DNA of 64,000 bases from Gracilariopsis chorda (lineage: Eukaryota; Rhodophyta; Florideophyceae; Gracilariales; Gracilariaceae): assembly GCA_003194525.1 (NCBI GenBank), contig NBIV01000019.1, forward strand, positions 310,001 to 374,000, read 5' to 3'. Every line of letters starts with the position of its first letter. Position 1 is the stretch's first letter. The notes below the pieces were generated by a model. That model made no database searches. It saw nothing but the letters and a program-made list of their open reading frames with translations, and had not been told where the DNA came from. Shown piece after piece: positions 3,334 through 44,601 of this stretch. Made by a program: the position numbers and the translations under genes.

Positions 3334-3477
3334 AGGTTCGTGACGGTCCGCAGAGTGCGTCATGTCTACACTTCGGAAGGAGAGTCACTGCGTCAAATCC
3401 GATGGTACGGATGCTGTCCTGAAGAGTATGTAGAAGTGCAAATAGGACCCCTACCTAGGTGCAAAGTGCTGTGTTGC
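3334..3477 (+). pseudogene. Chromodomain remnant of A0
   Basis: In the plus frame this reads RFVTVRRVRH, then LRQIRWYG, then PLPRCKV. It lines up with the element B chromodomain (REFVVDRFFGH, LQYRVRWYG, LPRSQV). In chromoviruses this C-terminal integrase domain guides integration by reading histone marks. The acidic and aromatic residues after RWYG (PSRDTWEP in B) are replaced (PEEYVEVQ), so binding function is doubtful. Confidence 0.6.
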
Positions 3478-7239: not shown

Positions 7240-7860
7240 GTAAGGGTTAACCTTCCCATCGGTGCAATCTGGAACACATTTTGTTCGGAAAAAAGTCTTC
7301 AATTACATGCTCAATATCAAAGGTTTGCTACCATACCCAGGAAACACAACAAGTGATGATTTACACTGCCAGGCTTGATTAGAAACACCTCTATCAACAG
7401 GCATTTTGGGTTACCTCACTTTTACCTTTTCAGTTGGTGCTATCGCGAATCCACCTCCGTGGCAATCGACGCTCAACCGACTTTGTTAAAGTACCCTTCA
7501 CCGCAGTTAGACAGGGATAACTAGAGAGAATGGTTAAAAAAGATGATACCGGTTGCCTGAATGCTATAGACAAAGCTCAACTTGCGTACAACCGTAATGT
7601 CGACGGCAAGGTCCGTCAAACACTACCACAGAATAATACAAATGAATTAGTTTCCTTCGTAAAGAGTATTATAATCATGAGAAGGAAAAGTGTCATAAGC
7701 TTTCTCCAGTAGTGTATAGCACCTATCGCATAGTTGCTACTGCCAAGGACACAGTCGTCTTGGACATTAACGATCAACAGTAACGGGTTTCGCGCGACCG
7801 CGTTACTGTATCTCCTCACTGTCACCCCACCCCTGATACTGAACATTCCTCCGACAGTAA
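7240..7860 (+). pseudogene. Integrase core-end and C-terminal remnant of A
   Basis: Reading across frames gives YHTQ (YHPQ in B), then VAIDAQPTLLKYPSPQ and WLKKMIPVA. It continues RKEYYNHEKEKCHKLSPVV and KDTVVLDIND, then RVSRDRV. Each piece matches the integrase C-terminal part of element B (RKEYYNPEWEKRHKLSPVA and so on) in the same order. Several in-frame stops and at least two frame changes show it is dead. The catalytic core before YHTQ is not readable. Confidence 0.75.
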
Positions 7861-9081
7861 TCTAGACTCAGACGACCGACTGGTGGTTCAATTTTATTGC
7901 AGCCAAGGCTTTAACCGCATCCAGATCGTGGTTTATCGGATTTAGCGATGGAAACGGATCTCCGTCTTCAGGACAAGTACCTGGATATCCCATCTCACTT
8001 CACTCGAGTCAACCCGCCACCCACCCCACAAACTTCTCAGGCTCCGCCTGAGGAGGGAGAGGGAGGTGTAATCGCTGTCCATTTACCAACGTCGCCAGGA
8101 AAAATTATTCCTGAGCACCAAACCGTTAGTCGCACAGTGCAAGACGTGGACATAGGACCGGGCAAAGTAAATGGGAGCCCCATTACGGAAAGCCCTCAAA
8201 GATGAGACACACTTCTAACAGCACCCGCCTCCGTAGCTCGCCTGCTGAAATTAGAACTTCGCAGTAGCGATAGAACGCAAGGCACTGCTCCTCTGACCAG
8301 TGGCGAACCGCGCCCGGTGATGGCCAACCATGAATTGGGTTACCTCGACGAAGACGACGACTCCGATCGGGTGTACACCACGCTTTGGTGCTTGTCATCC
8401 CTGATCGATGGGCAGAACGAGGCTTTCGTGGAACTCTTGAAGAGGGAGAACGTTGAGAAATGCCCCACGGCGTGTGGGAAGTTCACGGGAAACGTGCTTC
8501 ACAAGGCACACAGCCGGTATACGCACTTGAACTTAACACGACTAGAACGTGGCGGAGAACTGAGGTGCAGAAGCAACGGACACCGCATTCGTGTACATGA
8601 CATCCCTTTGCACCCATAGGCAAGGGTTTAAATAAAATGTCACCCAAACTTTATGGTCGTCCGGCAGCGACGGTCATCCAATCAGGATCCAGTGTGTAAG
8701 CCCCATAGCCCGTTGATCCGCCTCCATGTGCAGGGAGTGACGCACACCAATATCTTCTTCAAACGGTAGTCCTGACCCTGTGAGGCACTAACCGAATCTC
8801 GGACGCTACTGTTCGCCGGTTAACGACTCTTGGGAGCTCATGTGAAAACATACTACTCTGGAACGCAAGTTCTATCTGGGCACACTTCTACATTTGCGCT
8901 ATCACGCGTATAATGGAAGTTCCCGTTCGCACGATTTGACGGACCTACGGAAAGTAAATTCCAAGTACCTGGTCTCCGAGAACCGGGGTACCCTCGACCA
9001 GGGTTGGGAACGAGTCCCTTGGTATCTCTGAAGGGGTCGCTTTTACGGGAATCCGACATGGGTGACGTGAGATCGGACACT
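7861..9081 (+). other. Decayed linker between integrase and chromodomain of A
   Basis: It occupies the position of the Pro/Ser/Thr-rich linker of B (16200-17750). ORFs at 7948-8205 (Pro-, Glu- and Gly-rich) and 8317-8619 show composition similar to a disordered linker but no domain. The second also contains an acidic run (DEDDDSD). Confidence 0.35.
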
Positions 9082-9135: not shown

Positions 9136-9960
9136 TAAAGTCCAACGCCCTCAGGGAGGGATTCTTGGTACTTGATCGTTTTCCCGATATTATCGGTTGT
9201 GTAGTGTGTATATGAACTACTCCCCACAATGGTGGGTATGGACACGTGGGACACGGTTTTGGGCCAATTGGCGGTTGGCCACAGTAGTGGATGTTGCCAC
9301 GAAATGTGGAGTATTTTAGTTAATATTATTTATTATTTTCACACCCATTTCTGGGAAGCTAGTACTTTGTGCGACGGCACACTGCCGTTGCACCAGTAAA
9401 CCATCCCCAACAAGGGACTCCAAACTGGGAAATTGGCTCTAGTTGTTACCGCTTGCGCACGTGCTCTACTTCTCCTTGGAGGGAAACGCTGTGAACCACG
9501 GGACATCTAACCCCCTCGCACATGTAAAGGGACCCATCACTGGGAGTATAATTGTTCCAATTGCATTGGTGTTTCGCGCTGTATAGGGATATTGTTACCG
9601 GCATCGCCGTTCGTCCCCGTCGCTCTTGCGACTCACTTCGCCCTCTCTTCCTCCTCTTCGCTCTTCCTTTTTCCACTTTTTAGGGTAGCACCTCCCGCTA
9701 TCCGCGGCCCTCGTGTGCGCATCCGCTCACACACCCCCACTTACGTGGAAACATACCTCTACTGAGGATCAAACCCCGCTCACGTGGATACCGATTCTTC
9801 GCCTTCACCTCCCTGCGCAAGTCGCGACAGGTGTCCCTGGTCATACAAACCGGCTTCGACGTGACACCTCTGGGAGGGCTCTACCCAACTGGGTCCACCT
9901 CGTGAGAGGAAGATCCCGAAAGTCTTTCGGTGTTTTTCCCCTTTGGGGCATTGCATCACA
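9136..9960 (+). repeat. 5' LTR of element B
   Basis: Aligns end to end with 19501-20325 and ends TTGCATCACA. The first ten bases (TAAAGTCCAA) differ at half the positions from the 3' LTR (TGAGTTGCGA), although the rest is closely similar. The probable TATA box reads TATATGAA near 9209, but TATATAAA in the 3' LTR. Short perfect inverted repeats are frequent (for example CCGATATTATCGG near 9186 and CCCACAATGGTGGG near 9224). Confidence 0.9.
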
Positions 9961-9984: not shown

Positions 9985-10069
9985 TTTTTTTTTTGTTTTC
10001 CCTCTAACGAGGTTTGTTTTCATTCACCGGAAGTTCCGTGATCGTTTCCCGTCGTAACGGTATTTTCTC

Positions 10070-12244
10070 ATGTCGAGACATCCCTCCGATGCGGAGCCAG
10101 TGGTGACGCGTAGTCGCTCCGGCGACAACGCGGACACTTCCGACGTTCGGTTCGTACCCCGTATCCCTATACGGACAAGTTCCAGCCGTGCTGGCGCCGC
10201 TTCATTGCGGAATGATACCCCTGACCGGGAACCCCGGAACCTCCTTTTGCCCTCGTCATCACCCCCGCAGGGGAATGCAGCATCTACTTCGGCTGTTGCC
10301 GCAGTGCCCCAGGCACCCCAGCCTGCTCCCGCTGTCGCGGCTTCGAGCCCCAGTGGAACGGGCGATAACACCCCCCAGGGGACGTCCCTGGAATCCCAGG
10401 TCCGCGCTCTGTGGACCACCCATGACACCCTTGTAGAGGAACTAAAATCCCTCCAAAAGGTGCTCTTGGCAACCCCCGTAAAGGAGGTTGCCGAGGAACT
10501 CCGTATTTTACGGTCTGACGTCAACTCCGTGTTGGAGAGTTTGGGACCACCCGCCACCTTCATCGAAGGAGTTGAAGCCCGATTTGATCGGATTGGTGCC
10601 CGCCTGGAGAGGCTGGAGCAGTTCGTCCTCATGGACAAACCATCCCCGGATAATCCGGTAAACGAGGCTTCGCACAACGACCAGCTTGCTGGGAAGAAGA
10701 AACGCCGTCATCAACGGAAACACCACCAAAAATATTCAGACTCCGATTTTTCGACATCGTCGGACTCATCCCGAAACCATTCGGTTAGCTCGAGCTCCTC
10801 GGACTCCGACTCGGAGGATGAGAAGCGAGGCTACTCCTCCCGCTCGAAGCGGTCATTGGCCACTGAAGATGTGGTCCGAACCCGCCAGAAGGGGAGAAGA
10901 CACCCCGGTCTTCGGGAATTGAAACCGACAAACCCGGATTACCGGAAGCTTTTATCATACCGGTACTACCGGCTCGAAGAGTCGTCACTTGGACGTACGC
11001 CCCGTGGTACGGGAAAGGTGCGAGAATGCATTAAGCGAATGCAGCTCTCGCTCCGCAACCAGTATTTTACTGGAGAGGACCCAGTCCTAGTACTGGATTT
11101 CCTATCCCGCTTTGTAGCGGAGGCCGATATCCTCGGTATGAATGAGGGACAAGCCTATTTGGCTTTACCGTATTTCTTACGGGGAGTGGCGGAGGACCAA
11201 TACACCTCTGTCAGAGGATCTTCTCGTGCCTCTGAGGGAGGGGTTACTTGCTGGCCGGAGGCTGTGCAGTATCTTCTGCGCTCCTACGCCACAAACACCG
11301 CTATTCAGCAGGCTATCCTCGGTTTGCGAGATACACGCCAGCGTGCTGGAGAGACCGAGACCGATTACTCGGTGCGCCTTAACAAGGCTTTCCACAGATG
11401 TGGTAACGTATACCCAGCTGGGGAGCGCAGTACCATGTTCATCGATGGTCTTGACCCAGCAATCCGGAGTTTAGCTACCCGCTATCGGGAGGACAAGCGG
11501 AAGATCACCTATCTCGAGCTGGTCCCACACGCCCGAGCGGAAGGGGATGCATTTCGTCCAAGAACTCCGAACAATCGGTCTAAATCCGCCAAGGCGTTGT
11601 TGCTGGAAAGCGAAGCTTCCTCACTCCCGCTCACTGCGGATGGGAACCCTGGACAGGGATTTGATACTGTGCATTTAGTGCAGGGGGATGGTGTGTCGAT
11701 ACCCACCAGTGATCTACCGTCAACGACGGAGATAACCCGTGATACGGGAACAGAAAATCCCGTTCTATACGGTGGTAACAGTCGGGTCCAACCCCAACGA
11801 CTCCCGTTTTCAAACGGTCAATCCCGTTATCAACGGCCTGGATGGACTGACACCCGCCCTGCGGTTCGCTTCTCCGATACTCGGAATAATAATCCGCGTG
11901 TCGCGGTATTGGCTCTCATTTGCCACCTGTGCTATGCCCATGGCCATACCTCACCCCAGTGTATTTGTTCACTGAAGGATATGGCCAAGGTAGTGGCAAA
12001 TTATGAGGCCCTCACTACAGAGGAGAAACGTTCCGTCCCGACGGCTTCCTACCTCCGTGCTAAAACGGACTTTTCCCATGCCCTACCACAGACCCCGCGA
12101 GCGCGGCAAGCTTCATACACCCCGATTCGGGAGATCACGCAACAATCCGTTGCAACCCCCGCTTATGCGGATAGAAACCCCCGTCAACGGGATGAAGCAC
12201 TCGTTGTCGAGGAACCCAACCCACCGCCGAAGGCGGAAAACTAA
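10070..12244 (+). CDS. gag: Element B Gag polyprotein
   Basis: 724 residues, intact, starting at the first ATG after the primer site and leader. The product would form the virus-like particle. Residues about 110-195 are predicted coiled coil (LVEELKSLQKVL, RLERLEQFVL). Residues about 210-260 are a Lys/Arg patch and a Ser/Asp-rich run. Residues about 325-490 look like a retrotransposon Gag capsid domain (FLSRFVAEAD, YFLRGVAEDQY, MFIDGLDP). A CCHC zinc knuckle, CHLCYAHGHTSPQC, fits Cx2Cx4Hx4C near residue 620. The TAA stop at 12242 is followed by pol in the -1 frame. Larger than most chromovirus Gag proteins because of the long disordered N-terminal part. Confidence 0.9.
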   Translation: MSRHPSDAEPVVTRSRSGDNADTSDVRFVPRIPIRTSSSRAGAASLRNDTPDREPRNLLLPSSSPPQGNAASTSAVAAVPQAPQPAPAVAASSPSGTGDNTPQGTSLESQVRALWTTHDTLVEELKSLQKVLLATPVKEVAEELRILRSDVNSVLESLGPPATFIEGVEARFDRIGARLERLEQFVLMDKPSPDNPVNEASHNDQLAGKKKRRHQRKHHQKYSDSDFSTSSDSSRNHSVSSSSSDSDSEDEKRGYSSRSKRSLATEDVVRTRQKGRRHPGLRELKPTNPDYRKLLSYRYYRLEESSLGRTPRGTGKVRECIKRMQLSLRNQYFTGEDPVLVLDFLSRFVAEADILGMNEGQAYLALPYFLRGVAEDQYTSVRGSSRASEGGVTCWPEAVQYLLRSYATNTAIQQAILGLRDTRQRAGETETDYSVRLNKAFHRCGNVYPAGERSTMFIDGLDPAIRSLATRYREDKRKITYLELVPHARAEGDAFRPRTPNNRSKSAKALLLESEASSLPLTADGNPGQGFDTVHLVQGDGVSIPTSDLPSTTEITRDTGTENPVLYGGNSRVQPQRLPFSNGQSRYQRPGWTDTRPAVRFSDTRNNNPRVAVLALICHLCYAHGHTSPQCICSLKDMAKVVANYEALTTEEKRSVPTASYLRAKTDFSHALPQTPRARQASYTPIREITQQSVATPAYADRNPRQRDEALVVEEPNPPPKAEN

Positions 12245-12396: not shown

Positions 12397-15351
12397 ATAC
12401 AGAGTAAAAATCCCCGGATTCCCGGTAGAGTCTTGGTCTTGGCCAAGCGCAATTACAAGGTCTATACTGACCTTGGCCTTGATCCCCAGTTTATGGTGAG
12501 GTTTCTCACCGTCCTCGATACAGGTGCAGGCCCCAACTTTGTTGTGGAATCATTGTTACCCCCGCTTGTGCGGTCTCGTATTCGCTCTGACGCGGTCCCC
12601 GACATTTCGGATGCCAACAACAATCCGTTACAAACGGTGGGCACAGTGGACCTCGTCGTGAGACTTGGTACCTCTTTGGTGCATTTGGACTTCATCGTTT
12701 GCCATTCATTGGCAGCACCAGTCATACTGGGATATGTTTACTGCGACAGATTTGTCGACGCAATGAGGCCTCGCCTCAGGCGTGTAGAAATTGACGACGG
12801 ATCGTCGGTTCCGATTGTTCGCCGCCCGCTAAAGCGGTCCTCTCGGAAACAAGTTCCGCTCCCTGCTGCGCAGGAACCACCGCCCGCGTCCCGTGAGTTC
12901 ACCAAGCTCCGCGTCGCTGCCTCGGTTTCTATACCAGCTGAGTCCCAAGTCTGGGTGCATGTAGATTCCCTTCAACAGGGTCTTTGGGTTATACAACCCC
13001 TCACCTCGTCGTACGAGAAATCTCAGCTGGCGCGGGCTAATGGAATTGTCTCCATTTCCCCGGATGTTCCTTTCCGGATATTGGTTCCCAACCTTGGCAA
13101 ACACCCCCAGTATCTGGTAAAACACCAAGTAATTGGGGGTGTAACCCCCCATCCTATGGGAATGCTGCCGACGAAGATGACAGCCGCCGATGTACTCGGA
13201 GTTACCACCTCTTCTGAGGAGTTCGCCTCGCCGTCCGAAGACGTCAAGTCTAAGGAGGGGGAGGAAACCGCTACTTCAGCGTCGAACATACCGAGTAACT
13301 CGGAATTGCGAACCACACCTGTTCCAAAGGACAATGCTCCATCGAGCAACGACCGAATTGATCCGGAAAAGGCACTTGAAGCGCTGGACTCCAGCCACGT
13401 GCCAGAGTCGCACCGCGAAAAAATCCGTACAATGTTACAGGAATTCACCACAATGTGGGATGGCTCGCTTGGCGAGATAATTGCAACGGAACACCGGATC
13501 GATGTTTTCCTCGGTGCGCAACCGGTTGCACAACCCCCTTACAGGGCAGTTCCGAAAGCTCGGGAAGAGAAGCAGTCCCAAGTGGACAAGATGCTCCGCG
13601 AAGGTGTGATTGAGCCCGCTCAATCACCCTGGGTATCCCCAGTTGTACTGGCTTTAAAGGCCGACGGAACCTGTAGGTTCTGTGTCGACTACCGCCGGCT
13701 CAATGCCGTGAATGTTAGGGACACGTACCCTATCCCTCGTATGGACGAGTGCATTGACTCCCTCGGAGACGCCACCTTTTTCACGGCTCTCGATGCCAAT
13801 TGGGGATATTGGCAAGTACCTGTCAGACAGGAGGATCGCGACGAAACCGCATTCACCTGCCACGCAGGAACGCACCACTTCAAGTGGATGCCATTTGGGT
13901 TAACCAACGCCCCCGCCACCTTTCAGTGTGCAGTAGATATTCTACTCAACCGCTTTAAGTGGCGGAGTTGTCTGGTCTACCTTGATGATATTATCATCTT
14001 CTCCAACTCGTTGGACGACCATCTCACTCACGTCCGAGACGTGCTGACCGTACTCCGCGATGCGGGAACTACCCTCAAGTTGAGCAAATGCGAGTTTTTC
14101 ACAGATATTGTGAAGTATCTAGGTCACATTTTCCGTCCTGGACGGTTAGCGATCGAGAAAGCTCGAGTCAAATCCCTCGTTGAGGCGAAACAGCCCCGTA
14201 CTCAAACGGAACTGCGCTCCTTTTTGGGGCTGGTCAACGTCTATCGACGGTTTATCCCGAACTTTTCGGATACCGCGGCGCCCCTGAACGCGTTGTTGCG
14301 AAAGGGGAACCCCCCAAAACTGGGAACATTTACGCCCGAGCAATCGGAAGCCTTTAACTCCTTGAAGGAGGCTGTCACATCAGCACCAATCCTACATCTC
14401 CAAAAACTTGGGTTGCCATACTCCGTAGATACGGACTCGAGCGACTACCAAGTCGGGTGTGCTCTTTTTCAAACCACCCCCGAGGGGAACCGACACCCAA
14501 TTGGTTATGGGTCGCGCTCGCTCAATGTTCATGAGCGGAACTACTCCGTATCGGAGAAAGAGTGCCTCGCCGTCGTATGGGCGATGACAACTCTACGCCC
14601 CTACCTTATGGGAGTTCACTTCACCGTGTACACGGATCATTCCTCATTGAGGTGGTTAATGAATATCTGTGACCCGTCGGGACGCCTCATGCGCTGGAGA
14701 ATCCGCCTCGCGGAATATGACTTTCAAGTCATTTATAAAAAGGGTGCGCAGAACACCCAAGCCGACGCCCTGTCGCGGTTACCCACAAGTGGGGAAGCAC
14801 TGCCAACGGAGGATGATGAAGTCCCATGTTACATGGCCATAGAGCCGGATGATCTGGAATGTGCCGTCGAGGCTGGGCCAGAAAACTGGGACGAGGATGC
14901 TGACTTTGACGAACTACTCGCATCGCGAGATGAATCTAAGAACCCGCTACCGGGAAACTTTGTACCGGTATCACCGGAAGAATTGATCCGAGAACAATTC
15001 GGCGACCCATTCTGTACGAGGATTCGTGCCCGTCTTAACGGTGGTGAATATCTCCCTTTCGGGGTAAACGACGAAGGCTACCTCGTACGGAAGGTCAAAG
15101 CCCTCCCAAAGATTGTGGTACCTCATTTTCTGCAGTCGCGGGTGTTACATCTATCACACTACGCCCCCATTGGAGGTCACCCAGGTGGGAGGAAACTCTA
15201 CCTAACCCTGCGAAGGGATTTCTATTGGCCCGCCATGGCGGTGGATTGCTACGCAACCGTGCGGTTTTGTAGCGAATGCGCGAAGAATCGCGTGAAACTC
15301 CACAAAAATGCAAAGAAGATGAAACTATTCCCCGCAAGGGCGCCGCTCTAG
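12397..15351 (+). CDS. pol: Element B Pol: protease, RT, RNase H, integrase zinc domain
   Basis: Open from the amber codon at 12394 to TAG at 15349. There is no early ATG (first at 12493), as expected for a Gag-Pol fusion. Protease: VLDTGAGPNFV with the DTG-type active site, and VILGY. RT: CVDYRRLNAV, FTALDANWGYWQ, FGLTNAPATF and YLDDIIIF (catalytic YLDD). RNase H: VDTDSSDYQVGCAL, SEKECLAVVWA, VYTDHSSLRWL. Integrase HHCC: LHLSHYAPIGGH followed by CSECAKNR. All catalytic residues I can check are present, so the enzyme set looks functional apart from the stop codons. Confidence 0.92.
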   Translation: MQSKNPRIPGRVLVLAKRNYKVYTDLGLDPQFMVRFLTVLDTGAGPNFVVESLLPPLVRSRIRSDAVPDISDANNNPLQTVGTVDLVVRLGTSLVHLDFIVCHSLAAPVILGYVYCDRFVDAMRPRLRRVEIDDGSSVPIVRRPLKRSSRKQVPLPAAQEPPPASREFTKLRVAASVSIPAESQVWVHVDSLQQGLWVIQPLTSSYEKSQLARANGIVSISPDVPFRILVPNLGKHPQYLVKHQVIGGVTPHPMGMLPTKMTAADVLGVTTSSEEFASPSEDVKSKEGEETATSASNIPSNSELRTTPVPKDNAPSSNDRIDPEKALEALDSSHVPESHREKIRTMLQEFTTMWDGSLGEIIATEHRIDVFLGAQPVAQPPYRAVPKAREEKQSQVDKMLREGVIEPAQSPWVSPVVLALKADGTCRFCVDYRRLNAVNVRDTYPIPRMDECIDSLGDATFFTALDANWGYWQVPVRQEDRDETAFTCHAGTHHFKWMPFGLTNAPATFQCAVDILLNRFKWRSCLVYLDDIIIFSNSLDDHLTHVRDVLTVLRDAGTTLKLSKCEFFTDIVKYLGHIFRPGRLAIEKARVKSLVEAKQPRTQTELRSFLGLVNVYRRFIPNFSDTAAPLNALLRKGNPPKLGTFTPEQSEAFNSLKEAVTSAPILHLQKLGLPYSVDTDSSDYQVGCALFQTTPEGNRHPIGYGSRSLNVHERNYSVSEKECLAVVWAMTTLRPYLMGVHFTVYTDHSSLRWLMNICDPSGRLMRWRIRLAEYDFQVIYKKGAQNTQADALSRLPTSGEALPTEDDEVPCYMAIEPDDLECAVEAGPENWDEDADFDELLASRDESKNPLPGNFVPVSPEELIREQFGDPFCTRIRARLNGGEYLPFGVNDEGYLVRKVKALPKIVVPHFLQSRVLHLSHYAPIGGHPGGRKLYLTLRRDFYWPAMAVDCYATVRFCSECAKNRVKLHKNAKKMKLFPARAPL

Positions 15352-16794
15352 TTTATCGCGATCGATATTCTCGGACCACTACTCACCACGAAACGTGGAA
15401 ACAAGTTTCTACTTGTCATTACCGACCGCTTTTCTAAGCTGGTACGGACTGTCCTTCTTCGGAGGATAACCGCTCTCACGGTGGCCCAGGCTCTGGTGAC
15501 GCACTGGATTTTCGTCTACGGTCCCCCTGTGGAGGTGCTCTCCGATAACGGGAAACAGTTCGTGAGCAAGTTCTTCCAGGATGTTTGTCGCATCCTGGAT
15601 GTCAAGAACTTGTTCACGACTACCTACCACCCACAGTGTAATGGGAAAGTTGAACGGTTTAACCGGACGTTACTCGCGGCGTTACGTTCCTTCGTCGCAG
15701 ACCACCCAAAGAACCGGGACATGTACGCTGATGCGGGAACCTACGCGTACAACACGCAGGTACACCGGACTACCGGAGTTTCGCCATTCGAGTTAGTTCT
15801 ATCTATAACACCTCCGCCAGTGGCGCTGGAACCCCAAGCTACCTTGGACAATTTCCCATCAGTGGGTATCTACCGGCAGCAATGGAAGCAATGGCTTTCC
15901 AAGCTGGTCCCCGCGGCGCAGAAGTCTATGGCACGGGCCCAAGCCGCTTACAAGCGGGATTTTGATGCTCGCTTGCGAGGGAAACCGTCCCTGATACGGG
16001 CGAATAACTACGTCTTCATCAGGAAGGAGTACTACAACCCAGAATGGGAGAAGCGCCATAAACTCTCGCCTGTGGCGGATGGACCATTCAAGGTCATCTC
16101 TGTAAACACCGACACTGTCGTGGTAGAGATGGGCGACATGCACGAACGGATTTCCCGTGATCTTGTTGTCCTTGCCCCCCCTCCCTCGTCAGAGGTAGTC
16201 CTGGATCCAGGCAACCCCGTTTCTATGGACTCTGCAACCCCGGAATCATCCGGGAGTACTAGGCCTACGGTACTACCACACCGCAGCCGGGGACTCTCAG
16301 ACCTACCGACCCTGTCGGACTCACCGGCTCAGCCGGGTAATTCGGGCCCCTCAGCGCCCGCCCCTACCACGCCCGCCCCCCTGGCGCGAATTTATACCCG
16401 CCAGGCGGGGAATGTTATCACTTATCCTGCCGCTCCGTCTAAAGAGGGGGAGGAGAACACTCGTTTTCGAGGAACGATATCGCCGTCGCAACGAGAAACA
16501 CACCGTAACATACGGAACACTGACCGTGGAGCACGGAGTATGTCACGCGACACTAACCCCCCGTTCTCGGGCAGTGCTGTGCAACAGGAACCAGACGCGC
16601 AGGCCCCGCAAAAGCGGCAAATACACCGTTTGTCACTGGAAAACGAGAAGCACCCTCCAATAACGCAGCAGCGGAAATGCAATCGCCCGATCCATCCCCG
16701 GAGGCATTGCCACAAACGCGGGAAATATACCGTGCTACACGGGAAGTTGAAGCGCAACTACCGCACACCCCTGTCAGGGAAGGATCCCCGATAA
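15352..16794 (+). CDS. pol: Element B Pol: integrase core and C-terminal region
   Basis: Same frame as the preceding pol ORF, separated only by TAG at 15349. The DDE core is complete: FIAIDILGPL, then VLSDNGKQFV, then CNGKVERFNRTL. A GPY-like C-terminal part follows (RKEYYNPEWEKRHKLSPVADGPFKV). From about residue 260 it becomes a Pro/Ser/Thr-rich linker. The frame then runs into basic sequence and stops at 16792-16794. The chromodomain continues in another frame, so a frame change occurred around 16620-16700. Confidence 0.88.
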   Translation, partial: FIAIDILGPLLTTKRGNKFLLVITDRFSKLVRTVLLRRITALTVAQALVTHWIFVYGPPVEVLSDNGKQFVSKFFQDVCRILDVKNLFTTTYHPQCNGKVERFNRTLLAALRSFVADHPKNRDMYADAGTYAYNTQVHRTTGVSPFELVLSITPPPVALEPQATLDNFPSVGIYRQQWKQWLSKLVPAAQKSMARAQAAYKRDFDARLRGKPSLIRANNYVFIRKEYYNPEWEKRHKLSPVADGPFKVISVNTDTVVVEMGDMHERISRDLVVLAPPPSSEVVLDPGNPVSMDSATPESSGSTRPTVLPHRSRGLSDLPTLSDSPAQPGNSGPSAPAPTTPAPLARIYTRQAGNVITYPAAPSKEGEENTRFRGTISPSQRETHRNIRNTDRGARSMSRDTNPPFSGSAVQQEPDAQAPQKRQIHRLSLENEKHPPITQQRKCNRPIHPRRHCHKRGKYTVLHGKLKRNYRTPLSGKDPR

Positions 16795-17969
16795 GGGAGT
16801 ATGGTGACGATTGCCCCCAATCCCCTGAGCAGAGCGATGCATCGAAGCCGCCATTGGCTGAATCCCCCGCGGAAGCGGTTCAATTAGGTCCAGCAGACCC
16901 GTGCCCCGCGGAGAAGAGGCGCCCAGATACGCCATCCTCACAGGGAAATACCCACACCCCTCTTGGGGAAAAAGGCGGCCAAGCCACAGTCGAAGCTTCA
17001 GGCCCTGGAGCCCCAGCGCCGGAAACGCCTCCCACCGTCGACGGAATCGAAGCCCCCGCTCCGGGGAATAGTTTGCGCCAACCCCCGCAATGCTGCGGCG
17101 AAGAACCGAGAAACTCGGGAAAAACGCGCGCCATCGCACGCTCGAAACCGGTCGTACCGGACGCTGCTCCTCCTCATGGAGATGGTGCACCGCGCTTAGC
17201 GGCAATTCACCTGAAAAGGGTGCCATCGGCACCTGCCCGGCGCCCCCCAAAGGGGAATTTTGACCAAAATACCGGTGTACCGGAGGTAGCCCCAGGCAAC
17301 CCGTCAGTAGCCGGGGACACCACGGCGTCGCCGGAACGTATGGTGCAGAACGCTCGTGCACCTGGCAGGGAGGCGGAACGCTTACCAATCACAGTGTCGC
17401 ACGGGACCCCGCAGGGGATGTCACACACGCCGTTCCCGCATACGCGGCAAGGACCCCGCAAGCTCGTGGTTTGCAAAGAAGACCGCACTCGCGGAGTTCA
17501 AGTCCCCCGCCGACTGGCGGTTTGCCCGGCCTATCATGAAGACGGGAACAACGACACCCCTCGGGGGAATGACTTGCCGGTGAAAACCGTGACGCCACAC
17601 ACCCTCTTGAGGGATATTTTCCCGCATGAGCAGCGGCCACTAGGACAGCGCACGGCAACACCGGAGACATCGCCGACAACCCGGATGGGGGGCAACATAC
17701 CGCACAGCGGGCAACCCTCGCAAGGGAGTACAACCACCACCCGGCACGGCCGGAAGGTCTACGAACGAGAGTTCGTAGTAGACCGATTTTTCGGACACAC
17801 CTGGGACCAGGATGGTATTCTGCAATACCGCGTTCGCTGGTACGGATATGACCCCAGTAGGGATACGTGGGAGCCAATTGAACACCTCCCACGGTCGCAG
17901 GTCGTGCGATACCACCGTCAAACGGGAACTGCAGCCCCAGCCACGCTGGTTGATGCCCAAGTTGTATAA
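16677..17969 (+). CDS. Element B Pol C-terminus: disordered linker and chromodomain
   Basis: 430 codons overlapping the end of the integrase ORF in a different frame. The first about 350 residues are Pro/Ala/Glu/Arg-rich with no fold expected. The last about 70 form a chromodomain: YEREFVVDRFFGHTWDQ, LQYRVRWYGYDPSRDTWEP, IEHLPRSQVVRYHR. A QxRxIxR motif recurs in both this frame and the pol frame upstream (QKRQIHR, QTREIYR), placing the frame change between them. The ATG at 16677 is probably not a real start; the domain is normally the tail of integrase and steers integration toward marked chromatin. Confidence 0.85.
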   Translation: MQSPDPSPEALPQTREIYRATREVEAQLPHTPVREGSPIREYGDDCPQSPEQSDASKPPLAESPAEAVQLGPADPCPAEKRRPDTPSSQGNTHTPLGEKGGQATVEASGPGAPAPETPPTVDGIEAPAPGNSLRQPPQCCGEEPRNSGKTRAIARSKPVVPDAAPPHGDGAPRLAAIHLKRVPSAPARRPPKGNFDQNTGVPEVAPGNPSVAGDTTASPERMVQNARAPGREAERLPITVSHGTPQGMSHTPFPHTRQGPRKLVVCKEDRTRGVQVPRRLAVCPAYHEDGNNDTPRGNDLPVKTVTPHTLLRDIFPHEQRPLGQRTATPETSPTTRMGGNIPHSGQPSQGSTTTTRHGRKVYEREFVVDRFFGHTWDQDGILQYRVRWYGYDPSRDTWEPIEHLPRSQVVRYHRQTGTAAPATLVDAQVV

Positions 17970-18155: not shown

Positions 18156-19208
18156 TCACTCACCCCCATCGTCCAGGGCATAACCACCAGCGAGGCGGTA
18201 GGCCAACGCGTCCGCCATGGTGGTGACATCCCCCGATACCTCGCCAGCGCTCAGACCGGCACCCCGGAGAAAACGTGCGATGATCTCGTTTTCATTCGCC
18301 GTCACCCCGCTGGGGATAGAAGGTCCGGCACTTGCCACCGAAGGGTCAGCAGCCGGCTCGGCCGGAGATACCCCCTCTGGGAAAGCTTCCGCGCTAGCGC
18401 CGGTTTTCTCTACGTCCATCTCCCGGGGTTCTTCCGGTTCGTTATCGACCATTGGGTCATCCCTGCCGTATGCGCGGTAGTAGTCGTCAGAATCGACGTA
18501 CCCAACAGGGTGGTCTTCCGGCACATGCCGGGGCGTATCGCGAAGCTCGCGCGCCTCCTCGGAGGAAATTTCCTGGAACTCCCAGGGGTCAAAGTAGATA
18601 AAATCCCCCGCAAAGGCGCTGTTTCTACCGAGTCCCGGACCACCGGTGTTACCGCTACCGCCATCCAGACGACCGCTTTGCTCCAGCGGGACCTCACTCC
18701 AGCTAACGCTGTCGATGTACCCAAGTAATTGGAGGACCTCTTCATTGTTGGCCTGGCCCCCAAGGGGGATGCGAAGATCCAAATTGCGGATCGCTGCCCG
18801 CACAAGCGGTGGCAGGACCCAGAGACGAAACTGGTCGTACGCCTCGTTGAGGATATAAGCCGCAGCGCGGGCCGCCCACTCCGTAACCACTACGGTCTCG
18901 CCCGAATTCCTTCGGAGGTGGTGACGCGGAATCGCAATCCGGTGACGCCAATCCCACGATGTGGTGACTGCTCTGGGCAGATCCCCCGGAAGGGTGTCTG
19001 AGCCATCCGCATAAGCGGTGACCAATCCCTCATTGAGGACAGCGACCGGGTGGAACCACGGGGCAAGGCGCAAGCGCGACGCGTGATTCCGATTCATCGG
19101 GTTGAGCCCCACCAGGGTGTTATAGGTTGGCCAGTTGAATGCGGGGGCGGTTCCGGAGGACCCCACCGAAGGTGGTAGTGCGAAGGGATGGGCGGCTGCA
19201 GCAGCCAT
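18156..19208 (-). CDS. Antisense ORF of element B, unknown protein
   Basis: 350 codons on the strand opposite gag-pol, between chromodomain and 3' LTR. I do not recognise the fold. It is homologous to the antisense ORF of element A (20627-22207): shared blocks are DWRHRIA, EWAARAAAYILNEAYDQFRLW, AIRNLDLRIPLGGQ, NNEEVLQLLGYID and GDFIYFDPW, then DDPMVDNE. The N-terminal block ADGSDTLPGDLPRAVTTSWDW is also shared. The C-terminal third is acidic and Ser/Pro-rich. The start at ATG 19208 precedes five alanines. The frame stays open upstream to a TGA at 19335-19337, so an upstream exon or shifted frame may add residues. No signal peptide or membrane segment is visible. A TATA-like block lies at 19433-19455. 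Confidence 0.8.
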   Translation of the reverse strand: MAAAAAHPFALPPSVGSSGTAPAFNWPTYNTLVGLNPMNRNHASRLRLAPWFHPVAVLNEGLVTAYADGSDTLPGDLPRAVTTSWDWRHRIAIPRHHLRRNSGETVVVTEWAARAAAYILNEAYDQFRLWVLPPLVRAAIRNLDLRIPLGGQANNEEVLQLLGYIDSVSWSEVPLEQSGRLDGGSGNTGGPGLGRNSAFAGDFIYFDPWEFQEISSEEARELRDTPRHVPEDHPVGYVDSDDYYRAYGRDDPMVDNEPEEPREMDVEKTGASAEAFPEGVSPAEPAADPSVASAGPSIPSGVTANENEIIARFLRGAGLSAGEVSGDVTTMADALAYRLAGGYALDDGGE

Positions 19209-19338
19209 ACTCCCCGCTCCCCGGTTGTACCGGATGTCGATCGCCCTGAGGCAGGGGAACTGACCGGAAACCGGTGGTGTATCGCCCGAGAGGCCTCGGA
19301 GGTTGGCTGTGGTTGTTGATGTTGTTATCGTTGTTCAT
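19120..19338 (-). CDS. Small upstream antisense ORF of element B
   Basis: About 72 codons from ATG at 19338, beginning MNNDNNINNHSQPPRP. It lies about 95 bp after the antisense TATA-like block and overlaps the start of the 350-codon antisense ORF in another frame. Element A has a counterpart in the same place beginning MNSDNLNQHNS (22494). The conservation suggests a true N-terminus or leader peptide, possibly joined to the main ORF by splicing or frameshifting. The same frame is open upstream to 19446, but that start would lie upstream of the likely transcript. Confidence 0.45.
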   Translation of the reverse strand: MNNDNNINNHSQPPRPLGRYTTGFRSVPLPQGDRHPVQPGSGEYGCCSRPSLRTTTFGGVLRNRPRIQLANL

Positions 19339-19432
19339 TTCTCCCTTTTTGAGGGTGGCTGTTGTTGTTGTTTGTGCGCTCGATGACTCTGGTGCAGAGG
19401 GATTTACCGGAGAACCGGAGACAGAGCACGCG

Positions 19433-19455
19433 CTTTTATCACCCATTTTCGTCTG
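19433..19455 (-). promoter_or_regulatory. TATA-like antisense promoter block of element B
   Basis: On the minus strand CAGACGAAAATGGGTGATAA runs into AAG. Element A has CAGACGAAAACGGGTATAAA running into AG at 22594-22615. In both, the block ends about 58 bp from the 3' LTR and about 100 bp upstream of the ATG of the small MN ORF. It fits a core promoter for the antisense gene; transcription is inferred. Confidence 0.55.
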
Positions 19456-19490
19456 GGAATCCTCCGCTTCCGCGGTCGTTTTCCCGTCTT

Positions 19491-19500
19491 AGGGGGGATA
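19491..19500 (+). other. Polypurine tract of element B
   Basis: AGGGGGGATA lies directly before the TG of the 3' LTR. Confidence 0.85.
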
Positions 19501-20325
19501 TGAGTTGCGACGCCCTCAGGGAGGGATTCTTGGTACTTGATCGTTTTCCCGATATTATCGGTTGTGTAGTGTGTATATAAACTACGCCCCACAATGGTGG
19601 GTATGTACACGTGGGACACGGTTTTGGGCCAATTGGCGGTTGGCCACAGTAGTGGATGTTGCCACGAAATGTGGAGTATTTTAGTTAATATTATTTATTA
19701 TTTTCACACCCATTTCTGGGAAGCTAGTACTTAGTGCGACGGCGCACTGCCGTCGCACCAGTAAACCTTCCCCAACAAGGGACCCTAACCTTGGGAATTG
19801 GCTCTAGTTGTTACCGCTTGCGCGCGTGCTCTACTTCTCCTTGGATGGAAACACCGTGAACCACGGGACATCTAACCCCCTTGCACATCTAAAGGGACCC
19901 ATCACTGGGCGTATAATTGTTCCAATTGCATTGGTGTTTCGCGCTGTATAGGGATATTTTTACCGGCATCGCCGTTCGTCCCCGTCGCTCTCGCGACACA
20001 CTTCGCCTTCTCTTCCTCCTCTTCGCACTTCCTTTTTCCACTTTTTAGGGTAGCACCTCCCGCTATCCGCGGCCCTCGTGTGCGCATCTGCTCACACACC
20101 CCCACTTACGTGGAAACATACCTCTACTGAGGATGACACCCCGCTCACGCGGATACCGATTCTTCGCCCTCACCTCCCTGCGCAAGTCGCGACAGGTGTC
20201 CCTGGTCTTACAAACCGGCTTCGCCGTGACACCTCTGGGAGGGCTCTACCCAACTGGGTTTACCTTGTGAGAGGAAGATCCCGAACGTCTTTCGGTGTTT
20301 TTCCCCTTTGGGGCATTGCACCACA
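19501..20325 (+). repeat. 3' LTR of element B
   Basis: 825 bp, starting TGAGTTGCGA and ending CACCACA. It carries a good TATA box (TATATAAA near 19574). An 8-bp perfect stem, GCGACGGC and GCCGTCGC with a 5-nt loop, lies near 19737-19757; in the 5' LTR one base change makes it a G-T wobble pair. Confidence 0.92.
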
Positions 20326-20411
20326 CAGAAGGGTTGGTTTATTACCAACTCCGTTGGTATGGATACCTCCCAGAAAAGGACACGATAGAACTCATAGAAC
20401 AACCTACCTAG
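20326..20411 (+). pseudogene. Element A chromodomain, second half
   Basis: After the CAGAA target duplicate the frame reads GLVYYQLRWYGY, then PEKDTIELIEQPT and a stop at 20409. It matches LQYRVRWYGYDPSRDTWEPIEHLP of element B. The Trp after DT is Ile, so an aromatic-cage position is lost. Confidence 0.85.
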
Positions 20412-20626
20412 GTCTGAAGTCCTACTATATCACCGAAGGACTCGGACATCCATACCAGAAACAGTGGATAAAGCCCAAGTAGGGTAGAACTGTACCCGGT
20501 CCCCGAAGGTATGAAGTGAATGCGAAGCGGGGACGCTCGGAAAGAAGAAGAAGAACCTCACAGATGGAGCAAGAAGTTGATGAACTGTAGCAAATAGAAC
20601 ACTACCGAATTAACGTTTATACAGAA

Positions 20627-22207
20627 TTAACTGTTAAAAGAAGAAAAGTCATGATGATGAACCACACTATGAAGTGGGGAATTCAGAAGAAGCATGAAGT
20701 GGGAAGAACGAAGACCACAAGTTTGGTATAGTCCAGAAGCTATTGCAAGATATATCGCCGATACGCGAAGGTCAGAATTCTGCGTACAAGTTATCCCAAC
20801 CAAGGGCACCGCACCAGTGTGACTGGTTGAATGAGGATAGTTCGCCGCGGCGAGAGCCAGGAGCTGTCCAACATCTACCATTTCCGGAGGTACCGGGATT
20901 CCATGGTTTCGGATGTTCTCGCTCAACGCGATGACGTGAGGGTTCGTTACAATCGTAAGTGGCTCCTCCGCTAGAGGTTCACTCATCTGAGTTACGAAGC
21001 CCCATCCCTCGAGAGCACGAGATGGGTGGGACGCACCAGCGTTGCTCAGAACAACCGAATCCATGACCGCCCCATGGTGAAGGCCACCACTCTCGTTGGC
21101 CTCGTCATTCATCATCGGATCATCGAAGTCGACCGAGGGCTCGTAACCGTCATGAAATACGAGTCCTGTCGGATGACCCGCTGGTATGGTCCGCGGAAGA
21201 CTGCGTTGCTCAAATGAATTAGGACGGGACACCGTTGCACCAACATATGGGTCGTAATAGATGAAGTCCCCAGCAGTTGGATGCCGGCGACCCGGAGATT
21301 TGTCACGAGCGTTTCTTGGACCCTCAGCATGGTTATCACACGGAACTGTATCGCAGTTGACCTGGTCGATTACATCCGGGATGTATAATACTTCTTCCAC
21401 GTTGTCTTGGCATCCCAATGAAATTAACAGGTCGAGCTGTTTGATGATGCTCCTTACAATCGGCCGTATGAACCAAAGACGGTAGTTTTCATACGATTCC
21501 CAGAGAAGAAAAACCGCTACGCGAGTAGCCCAATCTGCAGCAATAAGCGACAAATAACCGGATTTCGGATCATCAATGATGTGGGAGCTTATATAAGTTA
21601 AACAGGGAGGAAGTTTCGAGAAAGACCCCTTGGGTACCTCAATCTGACGCCAACACGGTGGTAACGCTGCAAAGTGACCCCTTAACGTTTGCGGAAGATA
21701 CCGTTCGGTTTCCATATTGGTGTATGTAATCAAATGCCGATGTCGGGAACGCGCCTTGCGCTCAAAACGAATCTTCTCGGAGAACGCCGCTTGCATTTTA
21801 GAACGTCGAAGGAACCAAAACTCTGCAGAGATGATGGGCCTCGACCAGCAGAGCATATCGGACTTGATGGCTACCTGAGTTGCGGTTTCGAAGTGTGCAA
21901 TGTCGAACTGGGGCAGGTTATCCCCATATAATACTTCGCCATAGGTGCGATACCTCGATACGCCGAAGACGTATTCACTGGGAATCAGATGTTGACTTGG
22001 AGTAAGCATGAGCCGTTTATACGCGAGTCGCGTCATTTCTTCTCGAGACCTATCCAGATTCTCTCCACGGCGGAGGTCTATTCTCAGAAGATTAGCATAC
22101 AACGCAATGCGTCTCCGCCAATCGCGTGAGGTAACCAAGTCAATTGGAAGCCCACCAGGGAGAACTCCGTCGTGTGCGTAGGACTGGATCAGTGGCAGAT
22201 TGAAAAC
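20627..22207 (-). CDS. Antisense ORF of element A, unknown protein
   Basis: Open for about 527 codons from just after a TAG (22208-22210) to TAA at 20627. Homologous to the antisense ORF of B: DWRRRIAL, DWATRVAVFLLWESYENYRLW, IIKQLDLLISLGCQ, NVEEVLYIPDVID and GDFIYYDPY, then DDPMMNDE. Homology continues beyond the TAG (IYVSASWFHL against the WFHP of B), so the ancestral protein was longer. Between DWRRRIA and DWATRVAV it carries about 160 residues that B lacks. There is no in-frame ATG at the very start; the first is well inside. The openness of this frame contrasts with the ruined pol of the same element. Function unknown. Confidence 0.75.
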   Translation of the reverse strand, partial: VFNLPLIQSYAHDGVLPGGLPIDLVTSRDWRRRIALYANLLRIDLRRGENLDRSREEMTRLAYKRLMLTPSQHLIPSEYVFGVSRYRTYGEVLYGDNLPQFDIAHFETATQVAIKSDMLCWSRPIISAEFWFLRRSKMQAAFSEKIRFERKARSRHRHLITYTNMETERYLPQTLRGHFAALPPCWRQIEVPKGSFSKLPPCLTYISSHIIDDPKSGYLSLIAADWATRVAVFLLWESYENYRLWFIRPIVRSIIKQLDLLISLGCQDNVEEVLYIPDVIDQVNCDTVPCDNHAEGPRNARDKSPGRRHPTAGDFIYYDPYVGATVSRPNSFEQRSLPRTIPAGHPTGLVFHDGYEPSVDFDDPMMNDEANESGGLHHGAVMDSVVLSNAGASHPSRALEGWGFVTQMSEPLAEEPLTIVTNPHVIALSENIRNHGIPVPPEMVDVGQLLALAAANYPHSTSHTGAVPLVGITCTQNSDLRVSAIYLAIASGLYQTCGLRSSHFMLLLNSPLHSVVHHHDFSSFNS

Positions 22208-22593: not shown

Positions 22594-22615
22594 CTTTTAT
22601 ACCCGTTTTCGTCTG
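22594..22615 (-). promoter_or_regulatory. TATA-like antisense promoter block of element A
   Basis: The minus strand reads CAGACGAAAACGGG followed by TATAAAAG, a consensus TATA box. Position and sequence match the block at 19433-19455 in B. Confidence 0.6.
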
Positions 22616-22650: not shown

Positions 22651-22662
22651 TAAGGAGAGAGA
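22651..22662 (+). other. Polypurine tract of element A
   Basis: TAAGGAGAGAGA lies directly before TGTGTAGAGC, the LTR start. Confidence 0.75.
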
Positions 22663-23610
22663 TGTGTAGAGCAATGCGTGCGCGCATACCCTCTAGGCGA
22701 GGTGGATCATAAATGATTCAATACTGACATGGCATCGGTTCAACTCAGGTATTAGTGGACCCTCGGAAATACTGGGCGAATTTCGATATGAATATTACTT
22801 GGTATTTTTGGAACATTTTTGGGTGATCTGTGTGTTATCTGGAACAGATGAACGCGTGGCAAGCGTACGGATATTATTCATGGTTGGCATGATCCACACT
22901 TGTCGTTTTCTGCAGTGGCCATAAGTGCCTACAAGCGACACAAGTGGGTTGAAAACAATTTTGGCACACTACTGTAGTAGAATTCTTAGTTTATTGTTAG
23001 CCAATAGTGCTTAAGAGAGGACAAACTTGCCGTTGCAGCCTGAAGTTAAGAAAAGCTCTGACTCGGCTCTGAGTTTGTCGCCTGCTGGAAGTGACCAAAT
23101 CCTGCTGGGGTTTCCACGCTACCGGTCTCGTTATACTCATCCACGCATTATCAACAAGGACCGCTGATCTGTCTGACCCCGTGGGTTCACTCATTGTTTA
23201 CTGTTTTTATCATTTTGGTTACTTTCTACTGTTGGAACAGATAGCCGTTAGACGCAGTATTTTATTTTTCTGAGCTGGGTGGACAACCAAGACCCCGCAC
23301 TTCCACGTCTCTTTCGGCTTTCCGCACGACCCGCCGGGGTGTACCTTCCATCTTGGTTTCTCTCCTTTTTCTCTTTTCCCTTTTTGGATTCTACGTCGAA
23401 TGAAACACGGCTCAAACGGACCTGTGCACTATGTTGACCAGCTGGTAACCCGAATATTGGTATCACCTCCGTTGCTATAGCCGGAAGCCACCTTGGTTTT
23501 ACACCCGAACATCTTGTGGTACGGAGAGCCCTGTCACTGCGCCTACCTCACAAGAGAGCAAGGCTGCAAAAACCTTGGGAGGATTTCTGGCTAAGAGATA
23601 TTGCTCCACA
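22663..23610 (+). repeat. 3' LTR of element A
   Basis: 948 bp from TG after the polypurine tract to TTGCTCCACA. The end matches 1-133 of A0 and the terminus of the B LTRs. There is no 5' partner in the window, so a target duplication cannot be tested. Confidence 0.65.
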
Positions 23611-30211: not shown

Positions 30212-30354
30212 ATGAATACCACGTATACCTTGCATAATCGATAGAAGAATAAACCACGCCCAGAACTAGAAAAAGGGAAGGTTAAAGTTCATGTTATAGA
30301 CTAAAACAGGAATTTCGGGAAGGAGCTCTGACCTACACCAGTCCCAACATCTTC

Positions 30355-30362
30355 TATAAGTA
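30355..30362 (+). promoter_or_regulatory. TATA box of zinc-finger gene 1
   Basis: TATAAGTA, preceded by CAACATCTTC, is conserved in copy 2 at 62332-62339. It lies about 140 bp upstream of the ATG at 30497. An ATG at 30365 sits within the expected TATA-to-start-site gap and is ACG in copy 2, so it is not the translation start. Confidence 0.6.
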
Positions 30363-30496
30363 CAATGAGCCCAACAAATGTTGCACCATCCATCCAGGAA
30401 CATAAGAACACAACAGTAACAAACATTAACACTCACAGCAACAAACGCCGACCTAACCAAACCTATAATCTCCAAAAACAGAAACCCAAATCTATA

Positions 30497-31729
30497 ATGT
30501 CATCACAAAACAATTCGCAGGGTAGCACTAATCCGAGAGGAAGTTCAGCAAACAGCACAGAACGAAAAAAGCGTTCCCGAGATTCCGTTAATCAAATACT
30601 ACTGAACCTCGACGCGGACTGCTCGGAAATTCCAGCAAGTGCCGAAGCAGCGAGAGCACGCCAAATAGTGCATCCTTCTTTACTGCGCTTCCCAGGAGAA
30701 GCATCCGAAAGGTCTCAGCCACCCACCGGTGTTGCATCTTCCGGTGGGGCTGCTGGTCCATCCAGAGCAAGAAGAACACAACACTCATATCCCAGTGTCG
30801 CAGGTCCATCCACGGCAGGATGGCCACAGCAACAACGTGCATCTTCCAATATTGGTGGTCCATCCACCGCAGGATGGCCACAGGAACGACATGCATCGTC
30901 CAGTGTCGATGGTCCATCCACCGCAGGATGGCCACAGCAACAACGTGCATCATCCAGTCTCGGTGGTCTGTTTACACCAGGATGGCCACCACAACAAAGT
31001 ACATCATCCAGTCTAGCTGGTCCATCTACCGAAGGATGGCCACAACGTGGATCTTCCAATATTGCTGGTCCGTCCACTGCAGGAAGGTCACTGCAACAAC
31101 GTGCATCTTCCGATATCACTGTTCCATCTACGCCAGGCGCAGTAGCACCTGAGAGCAGGGCAGGAATGTCTGCGTCTGGAACCGAAGCTGGGGAACCAGA
31201 ACCCAAGAAACGCAGAAGGGATGAATGCCCTAAATGCTTGCGCAGATTTAACAGTCGAGCCCAAGCTACGCTCCATCAGAAAACCTGTTCAGCAAGTCAC
31301 AACTGCACTGTTTGCAAATATTCAACACCATATAAGGGAATGATGGAACGCCACCAAGCGATACATATAGAAACCAGATGTTCTATATGTGACAGAACGT
31401 TCGCATCGAGAGAGGCACTGTCTGCTCACAATGTTGATCATCATGGATCCCCGATGCCAATGTTTGCCTGCTCACACTGCGGAAGGCGGTATTCCAGGAA
31501 AGCCAGTATGCGAAATCACATTCGAAACAACCATCCACACTCGGGGCAAGTTGGCTGTCCATATTGTTTTCTTAGCTTCTCTAACCAAAAAGGTTTGGAT
31601 ATGCACATTTGCCAAAAGCACGCGACACCAAAGCTAGAGAAATATGCATGTGAGATTTGTGGAAGAGAATATGGCTCAAAGAGAGCCATGATGGAGCATG
31701 TACGACAGAGTCACGGTGGAACCAGCTAA
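30497..31729 (+). CDS. C2H2 zinc-finger protein 1
   Basis: 410 residues from the ATG at 30497, the first ATG conserved in both copies (MSSQ). Residues 1-100 are Ser/Arg/Asn-rich. Residues about 103-210 are six full 18-residue or near-18-residue repeats of the type GPSTAGWPQQQRASSNIG. Then come a basic KKRRR stretch and six zinc fingers: a Cx2Cx12Hx3C (CPKC to HQKTC), then CTVC/HQAIH, CSIC/HNVDHH, CSHC/HIRNNH, CPYC/HICQKH and CEICG/HVRQSH. Multi-finger C2H2 proteins usually bind nucleic acid in the nucleus; the target is unknown. Single exon, intact, TATA box 140 bp upstream. Its duplicate is at 62476-63660. Confidence 0.85.
   Translation: MSSQNNSQGSTNPRGSSANSTERKKRSRDSVNQILLNLDADCSEIPASAEAARARQIVHPSLLRFPGEASERSQPPTGVASSGGAAGPSRARRTQHSYPSVAGPSTAGWPQQQRASSNIGGPSTAGWPQERHASSSVDGPSTAGWPQQQRASSSLGGLFTPGWPPQQSTSSSLAGPSTEGWPQRGSSNIAGPSTAGRSLQQRASSDITVPSTPGAVAPESRAGMSASGTEAGEPEPKKRRRDECPKCLRRFNSRAQATLHQKTCSASHNCTVCKYSTPYKGMMERHQAIHIETRCSICDRTFASREALSAHNVDHHGSPMPMFACSHCGRRYSRKASMRNHIRNNHPHSGQVGCPYCFLSFSNQKGLDMHICQKHATPKLEKYACEICGREYGSKRAMMEHVRQSHGGTS
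30803..31132 (+). repeat. 54-bp coding minisatellite in zinc-finger gene 1
   Basis: Units start at 30803, 30857, 30911, 30965, 31019 (48 bp), 31067 and a partial one at 31121. One unit more than in the duplicate gene. The unit has few stops in any frame, which is why long ORFs are open on both strands here. Confidence 0.85.
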
Positions 31730-44130: not shown

Positions 44131-44131
44131 C

Positions 44132-44542: not shown

Positions 44543-44601
44543 GAGGTTTCATAGGGCTTTCTTGCATTTGTCAAAGGCCTGCATTTCCGTGGCACCCCAG
44601 T

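Follow-up and report, generated by a model that had tools for sequence, protein, structure and literature searches.

An antisense accessory gene of a chromodomain Ty3/gypsy lineage in gracilarioid red algae, and amplified element forms that lack it

Why would retrotransposons of a red alga carry, between the chromodomain and the 3' long terminal repeat (LTR), a long open reading frame (ORF) on the opposite strand? The question is raised by a stretch of 64,000 nucleotides (nt) from Gracilariopsis chorda, called the window below (G000:C19:310001-374000; contig NBIV01000019.1), which was analyzed within a genome of 91.3 Mb in 1081 contigs. A preliminary description of the window had reported such ORFs in two related gypsy elements, A and B, and had proposed an accessory gene. 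We find that the ORFs belong to one gene family, an accessory gene of a chromodomain Ty3/gypsy lineage of gracilarioid red algae, encoded on the strand opposite to gag-pol.

The two antisense frames match each other far above chance (E = 5.8e-27, 39% identity over 153 residues), which confirms that A and B carry homologous ORFs in the described position. The described lengths (350 codons in B, about 527 in A) do not stand for intact genes. The frame of B (18156..19334, minus strand, 392 codons from stop to stop) is broken: the start codon used by related copies falls in another frame, and about 168 codons (504 nt) of the same-family copy L042 are absent, with the gap placed between two CCGT repeats. 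A spliced intron was considered for the missing segment and rejected, since its ends are not GT-AG and the CCGT repeats fit a deletion. In A (20627..22207, minus strand, 526 codons), homology passes the upstream stop and continues to 22366, so that the N-terminus lies outside the frame, and the last 58 codons or so extend beyond the homologous region. The closest relatives of the A frame contain several stops each. The longest uninterrupted antisense frames among the fetched copies measure 583-666 codons from stop to stop, and the window copies are poor examples of the family.

Element B is a chromodomain Ty3/gypsy LTR retrotransposon, with reverse transcriptase, RNase H, integrase and chromodomain in this order between LTRs. 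The 5' LTR (9137..9960, plus strand, as are all features of B except the antisense gene) pairs with the 3' LTR (19502..20325). Their outer ends are approximate; the LTRs are about 824 nt each, differ at 41 of 824 positions and share an ungapped blastn match of 816 nt. A gag-like frame (10058..12244), to which no Pfam gag model gave a match, corresponds to homologous stretches that precede pol in related copies. It is followed by a pol frame (12397..15351; Pfam RVT_1, RT_RNaseH and Integrase_H2C2, the last being the integrase zinc domain), an integrase core frame (15352..16794; Pfam rve) and a chromodomain (17772..17897; Pfam Chromo, 7.9e-9, residues 406-447 of the frame 16557-17969). Because the LTR pair bounds B, its antisense frame is placed between chromodomain and 3' LTR. 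No clean target-site duplication of B was found. Element A appears to be split by B: an integrase remnant lies upstream of the inserted B (7384..7959, plus strand; tblastn 5.4e-16) and probably belongs to A, and a chromodomain remnant (20307..20481, plus strand; tblastn 6.7e-8; the first 19 nt overlap the B LTR end) lies downstream together with the antisense frame.

The gene is not confined to the window. A 21-residue motif of A has 147 matches in the genome, many of them within frames of 580-666 codons. Searches with four antisense proteins gave 1129-2385 first-look candidates, of which the best 77-135 were scored; all copy counts are therefore lower bounds, and they give no ratio of intact to deleted forms. 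At 30 of the 32 loci fetched by the gene (20 + 12), a chromodomain lies beside it on the opposite strand. The exceptions are L010, which is truncated by a contig end, and L027, where no chromodomain was seen. Of the 87 copies scored in the B family, 78 are free of stops in the listed C-terminal piece, and 70 of those lie in a frame of at least 600 codons. A listed integrase could be paired with 30 of the 87, at a distance of exactly 1698 nt in 17 cases and of 1543-1850 nt in the rest.

The antisense frame behaves as a protein-coding frame. In eight representatives it alone of the six frames is open throughout, the others reaching at most 208 codons, and it matches in 28 of 28 pairs at 29-60% protein identity. 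Differences between clades are distributed over codon positions 1, 2 and 3 as 30.5, 26.7 and 42.8%, an excess at the third position. These data bear on the alternative that the antisense RNA is the agent and the protein frame incidental. The gene and pol are convergent, so that sense and antisense RNA would overlap, and retroelement antisense RNAs are discussed as silencing triggers (PMC7264820). This alternative is nevertheless highly improbable, given frames of about 600 codons that stay open at 29-60% protein identity, the third-position excess and the low rates of amino acid replacement between measurable subfamilies.

Those rates were expressed as the ratio of nonsynonymous to synonymous substitutions (dN/dS). 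The ratio is 0.16 to 0.18 for L029 versus L031, L035 and L036, and 0.09 for L033/L038, on 73 codons only; the pair L032/L038 was left out, as the frame pieces barely overlap.

Relationships of the antisense gene follow those of pol. Pol and antisense identities correlate over 14 copies (Mantel r = 0.90, p = 0.0001), in a set in which one entry combines two same-family copies (antisense gene of L042, pol of window B) and for five entries the pol sequence came from another stretch of the copy concerned. Both trees unite B with c2, c3 with c7, the two c4 copies and the c5/c6 copies; the sole difference is the order of c5a and c5b.

The family extends to a second genus. Among the matches listed, Agarophyton chilense has at least nine homologues (P0006-P0008, P0010-P0013, P0016 and P0017). 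Four of them were included in the tree, where they join one of the two main clades as sister group of its G. chorda members (support 0.999). Barring horizontal transfer, the split into the two main clades is older than both genera. Further homologues are P0001-P0004, P0009 and P0014 and, from G. chorda itself, P0005 and P0015. P0005 is annotated as hypothetical protein BWQ96_10156, and its residues 88-565 are encoded on contig C355 at 99%. Its annotated intron skips a stretch near residue 90, and the aligned stretch of the sister copy L012 looks coding. We do not accept this intron as real; it is probably false and looks like a bridge of the gene model across a frame change shared within that subfamily. 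The change recurs in L040 and in copies on C305, C6, C1 and C336, all of one subfamily. Three homology searches returned no homologue outside the family, and a viral-contig scan found no relative of the antisense protein. An origin outside gypsy elements was considered and not adopted for want of such a homologue, copies at a distance from these elements not having been searched systematically.

Is the gene present in every member of the family? Four B-family copies (L050-L053) were fetched by integrase instead of by the gene. It is present in L050 and L053 and absent from L051 and L052. Both deletions, in L051 and in L052, span the entire coding region between conserved start and stop and spare the TATA-like region; their end points differ (junctions at L051:180-205 and L052:165-170, plus strand). 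The junction-spanning piece of the L052 form matches at 40 of 40 scored places; that of the L051 form matches at 19 places over its full length and at 2 partially, again of 40 scored. Ten matches of the L052 form and five of the L051 form could be paired with listed integrases. Two copies of each form lie within an uninterrupted frame of 1875 amino acids that holds the integrase and is consistent in length with a pol that includes the chromodomain. Hence, forms lacking the gene have multiplied, and the antisense gene is therefore dispensable in cis.

The remaining 19 matches of the L051 piece cover it only partially and represent a third, partly deleted form, which shares with L051 a part of the junction region (L051:174-300, plus strand), including about 25 nt that cannot be aligned to L042. 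Its distance from the integrase is 2350-2351 nt in the copies that could be paired. Two independent losses were considered and not upheld: L051 and L052 share flanking differences from L042, and a second deletion, between AGAAC repeats, could have turned the L051 form into the L052 form. The data therefore support at least one loss, not at least two, and a single original loss is possible.

One alternative is a role in copy-number or superinfection control, in which the protein would damp transposition in trans and the deletion forms would be escapees. Such self-restraint is the role of p22 in Ty1. The multiplication of forms without coding part, but with the promoter region and in some cases with the uninterrupted 1875-amino-acid integrase frame, would agree with it. 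A brake that acts in trans would hit the deletion forms as well, and we give this explanation little probability.

The protein itself offers few leads. Searches of Pfam, PDB sequences and viral contigs yielded no significant relative. The weak Pfam leads (E3_binding 0.029, PRC2_EED_ins 0.047, DUF6220 0.053, DUF6127 0.071, Ish1 0.092, ARM_TBCD_2nd 0.28) and PDB leads (22za_A 0.23, 1yt5_A 1.1) were taken as noise. AlphaFold2 produced confident, mostly helical pieces and no reliable whole model, and fold comparison of the pieces gave no meaningful match. The most confident part, with a predicted local distance difference test score (pLDDT) near 90, is the conserved block already pointed out in the preliminary description. 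The statement made there, that no antisense ORF with this sequence was known from a chromodomain-bearing element, is in line with the searches of Pfam, PDB sequences and folds, none of which gave a significant match. Aspartate plus glutamate exceeds lysine plus arginine in all eight representatives. The best 19-residue Kyte-Doolittle mean is 0.94-1.48 in seven of them and 1.65 in L031, just above the customary cut-off of 1.6 for a membrane segment. Judged from sequence, the protein thus seems to have no clear membrane segment. The predicted product appears to be acidic and largely soluble, with disorder at its N-terminus, helices in its core and two helices in a small C-terminal part.

Another idea is that the gene serves dissemination, i.e., that it encodes an env-like or movement protein for passage between cells or hosts, which is lost once a lineage multiplies inside one genome. 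Endogenous retroviruses lose env when they turn to multiplication within the genome, and the loss and subsequent amplification observed here have that shape. Conservation across genera and the hydropathy of L031 (mean 1.65) also speak for this idea. The values of 0.94-1.48 in the other seven representatives, the N-terminus predicted with low confidence and looking disordered, relationships that follow pol, and an antisense orientation unlike that of env all argue against it, and we regard it as unlikely.

How might the gene be expressed? On the antisense strand, eight sequences from lineages A, B, c2, c3 and c4 have a TATA-like octamer at a distance of 63-67 nt from the polypurine tract; in five sequences of the other clade (L029, L030, L031, L036 and L039) the distance is 43-45 nt. 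Altogether, 13 of 21 sequences have the octamer at a concordant distance; where a sequence has several tracts, the concordant one was chosen. In A, the octamer TATAAAAG (22594..22601, minus strand) agrees at 8/8 positions and lies 63 nt from a polypurine-like tract (22653..22664, plus strand), one of three landmarks found there by pattern. In B, the octamer (19433..19440, minus strand) agrees at 7/8 positions and lies 64 nt from the polypurine tract (19491..19501, plus strand), which was read from the sequence and adjoins the 3' LTR. At the other end of the gene, AATAAA occurs 78-111 nt past the stop in 5 of 11 copies and a one-base variant in another 5; neither was found past the stop in L012. 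The placed octamer hints that the antisense gene has its own promoter, and a separate antisense mRNA may start at a core promoter that lies next to the 3' LTR, on its inner side.

Taken together, we consider it somewhat more probable than not (roughly 57%) that this is an old accessory gene, expressed from a separate mRNA, whose product is a trans-acting regulatory or counter-defence factor, perhaps in the nucleus. We infer that it acts in the life cycle of the element or in its interaction with the host, that it is transcribed separately and that its product acts in trans. The gene would be transcribed from this internal core promoter, and the soluble protein would act as a regulator or in counter-defence, with transcription, silencing or integration of the element in the nucleus as possible targets. 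Because this promoter would lie outside the LTR, the product would be available while the LTR promoter is off. Because the protein would work in trans, copies without the gene could spread in cells that hold intact copies. We favor a nuclear regulatory or counter-defence role because the protein has no clear membrane segment and the plant counterparts discussed below have been read in this way. The fullest version of the picture is an old chromovirus lineage of gracilarioid red algae with a self-promoted, trans-acting antisense gene of a new protein family, and with deletion forms, missing only that gene, that multiplied as parasites of intact copies, as a helper-cheater system within one retrotransposon family. 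It is possible, and we put it forward only tentatively.

Several observations weigh against the reading as an old, trans-acting regulatory gene. The copies of the first survey were selected by the antisense gene itself. Other frames of the representatives give 11 weaker cross-clade matches, as overlap with the coding frame would. Synonymous sites are saturated in most between-clade pairs; among the closer of these, the proportions of nonsynonymous and synonymous differences are 0.26-0.35 and 0.69-0.77, respectively. Single pairs of close copies have dN/dS values of 0.30-0.94, and L032/L033, with a dS of 0.22, a value of 0.51; as ratios of group means, close copies yield 0.51 in the B family, 0.65 in c2 and 0.66 in c3. 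Copies with a long pol frame have antisense dN/dS values of 0.84 in c2 (4 copies) and 0.64 in c3 (7 copies), and pol values in the same copies are no higher (0.51 and 0.59), in a control that leaves out L017 and L022, whose longest pol frame is below 700 codons. Three of the 13 sequences with a concordant distance have a weak TATA-like octamer (6/8 positions in L018, 5/8 in L031 and L039). It is not concordant or absent in 8 of the 21 sequences: it is not concordant in L032, L033, L024, L002 and L004, nor in L006, which has 7/8 positions at 41 nt, and L037 and L038 have no polypurine tract under the pattern used. The octamer and poly(A) scans had no chance control. The amplified deletion forms, which may trace to one loss, are explained equally well by simple dispensability and by help in trans. 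The nuclear or regulatory role is proposed by analogy, for a protein in which no domain or fold was recognized.

The near-neutral ratios among close copies and the dispensability in cis would also be expected of a captured gene that drifts with the element as a passive passenger without use. Long frames in eight representatives at 29-60% mutual identity and homologues in two genera make this very unlikely. The selection pattern is low dN/dS between the measurable subfamilies (0.09-0.18) and higher values among close copies; it fits, over the few subfamily pairs measured, a gene that source lineages maintain and whose dead copies decay freely. The preliminary description had named two results that would speak against its proposal, dN/dS near 1 across many copies and absence of the ORF from other full-length members; each was obtained in part, the first in the close-copy ratios and the second in the two of four integrase-fetched copies without the gene. 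Transposition therefore does not require the gene in cis each time. The accessory gene of the preliminary description is supported in part: it follows pol, matches in all cross-clade pairs and has low dN/dS between subfamilies where this is measurable.

The window contains further elements. An isolated chromodomain-like remnant at 3199-3735 (plus strand) was recognized by tblastn and by eye; it has no Pfam match, and by profile no antisense frame lies nearby. A different gypsy-type element at 38300-42727 (plus strand), with SH3_Tf2-1 and Integrase_p58_C domains, is likewise without the antisense gene by profile. Frames of another retroelement occupy 43021-47250 (minus strand; Pfam Integrase_H2C2 and a tblastn match resembling reverse transcriptase), and Copia-type fragments lie at 34886-37133 (plus strand; RVT_2 with 2.5e-7 in 36411-37133, narrowly below its cut-off). 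A Helitron-like element at 52924-57927 (plus strand) has long frames that encode Helitron_like_N and PIF1 helicase domains. Two C2H2 zinc-finger frames (30332-31729 and 62383-63660, plus strand) are closely related to each other; in both, the N-terminal half is repetitive and rich in Ser and Gly, and they possibly represent a repeated or mobile gene.

How does the red algal gene compare with known systems? The closest parallels are in plants, namely the antisense ORFs with TRP28 domain in Retand elements, gene23 of maize Grande and the corresponding ORF of rice RIRE2 (PMC11963269, PMC7264820). There, as here, an antisense gene lies between pol and the 3' LTR and is conserved over copies and species, and its role is described as unknown. 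The Grande gene is described as transcribed in antisense from an upstream promoter, with a nuclear product; the red algal gene has candidate signals, namely the placed TATA-like box and the poly(A)-like motifs. Retand belongs to a non-chromovirus lineage, whereas the red algal carriers have a chromodomain, identified in element B by Pfam. The TRP28 model (PF04195) gave no match up to E = 1 in two sets of 9 and 18 members, nor up to E = 3 in 10 proteins, and a very distant likeness is possible. The red algal protein is probably best regarded as comparable to the Retand and Grande antisense ORFs, without detected homology.

Outside plants, the Boty-like elements of Botrytis cinerea carry the antisense gene brtn (Zhao et al. 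2011), which is, like the red algal gene, an extra antisense gene of a Gypsy-type element (BcGypsy1). It is set apart here on the grounds that none of the three homology searches returned a protein named as fungal, not by comparison with the brtn sequence. The HBZ-type genes of human T-cell leukemia virus (HTLV; PMC11963269, PMC7264820) likewise lie in antisense orientation near a retroelement's 3' end, and HBZ is a regulatory protein; this likeness is by description only. The HTLV antisense promoter lies inside the 3' LTR (PMC7264820), whereas the red algal TATA-like box is internal, beside the polypurine tract. LTR elements of bdelloid rotifers have acquired ORF3 genes (PMC5408684), which resemble the present case as family-specific extra genes downstream of pol. 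Several of these have recognizable enzyme or env-like domains, in contrast to the red algal protein, in which none was recognized. As for the host group, three red algal genomes yielded no chromodomain of a retrotransposon in a survey of 2012 (PMC3350952), and red algae are named among chromovirus hosts elsewhere (PMC3605345). Among the literature matches listed, no title concerned this gene or antisense genes of algal LTR elements, many subscription papers lying outside the coverage.

Intact and gene-less elements of closely similar sequence coexist in the G. chorda genome, which offers a comparison for need in cis, help in trans and silencing. Antisense genes near the 3' end of LTR retroelements have been reported from plants, a fungus and retroviruses, with the roles in plant retrotransposons called unknown in the sources cited. 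To these, the present family adds a red algal host, a chromodomain-bearing carrier, a protein family without detected outside relatives and amplified forms that have lost the gene. The combination of red algal host, separate protein family and chromodomain carrier implies that the trait has more than one origin or a greater age than had been assumed.

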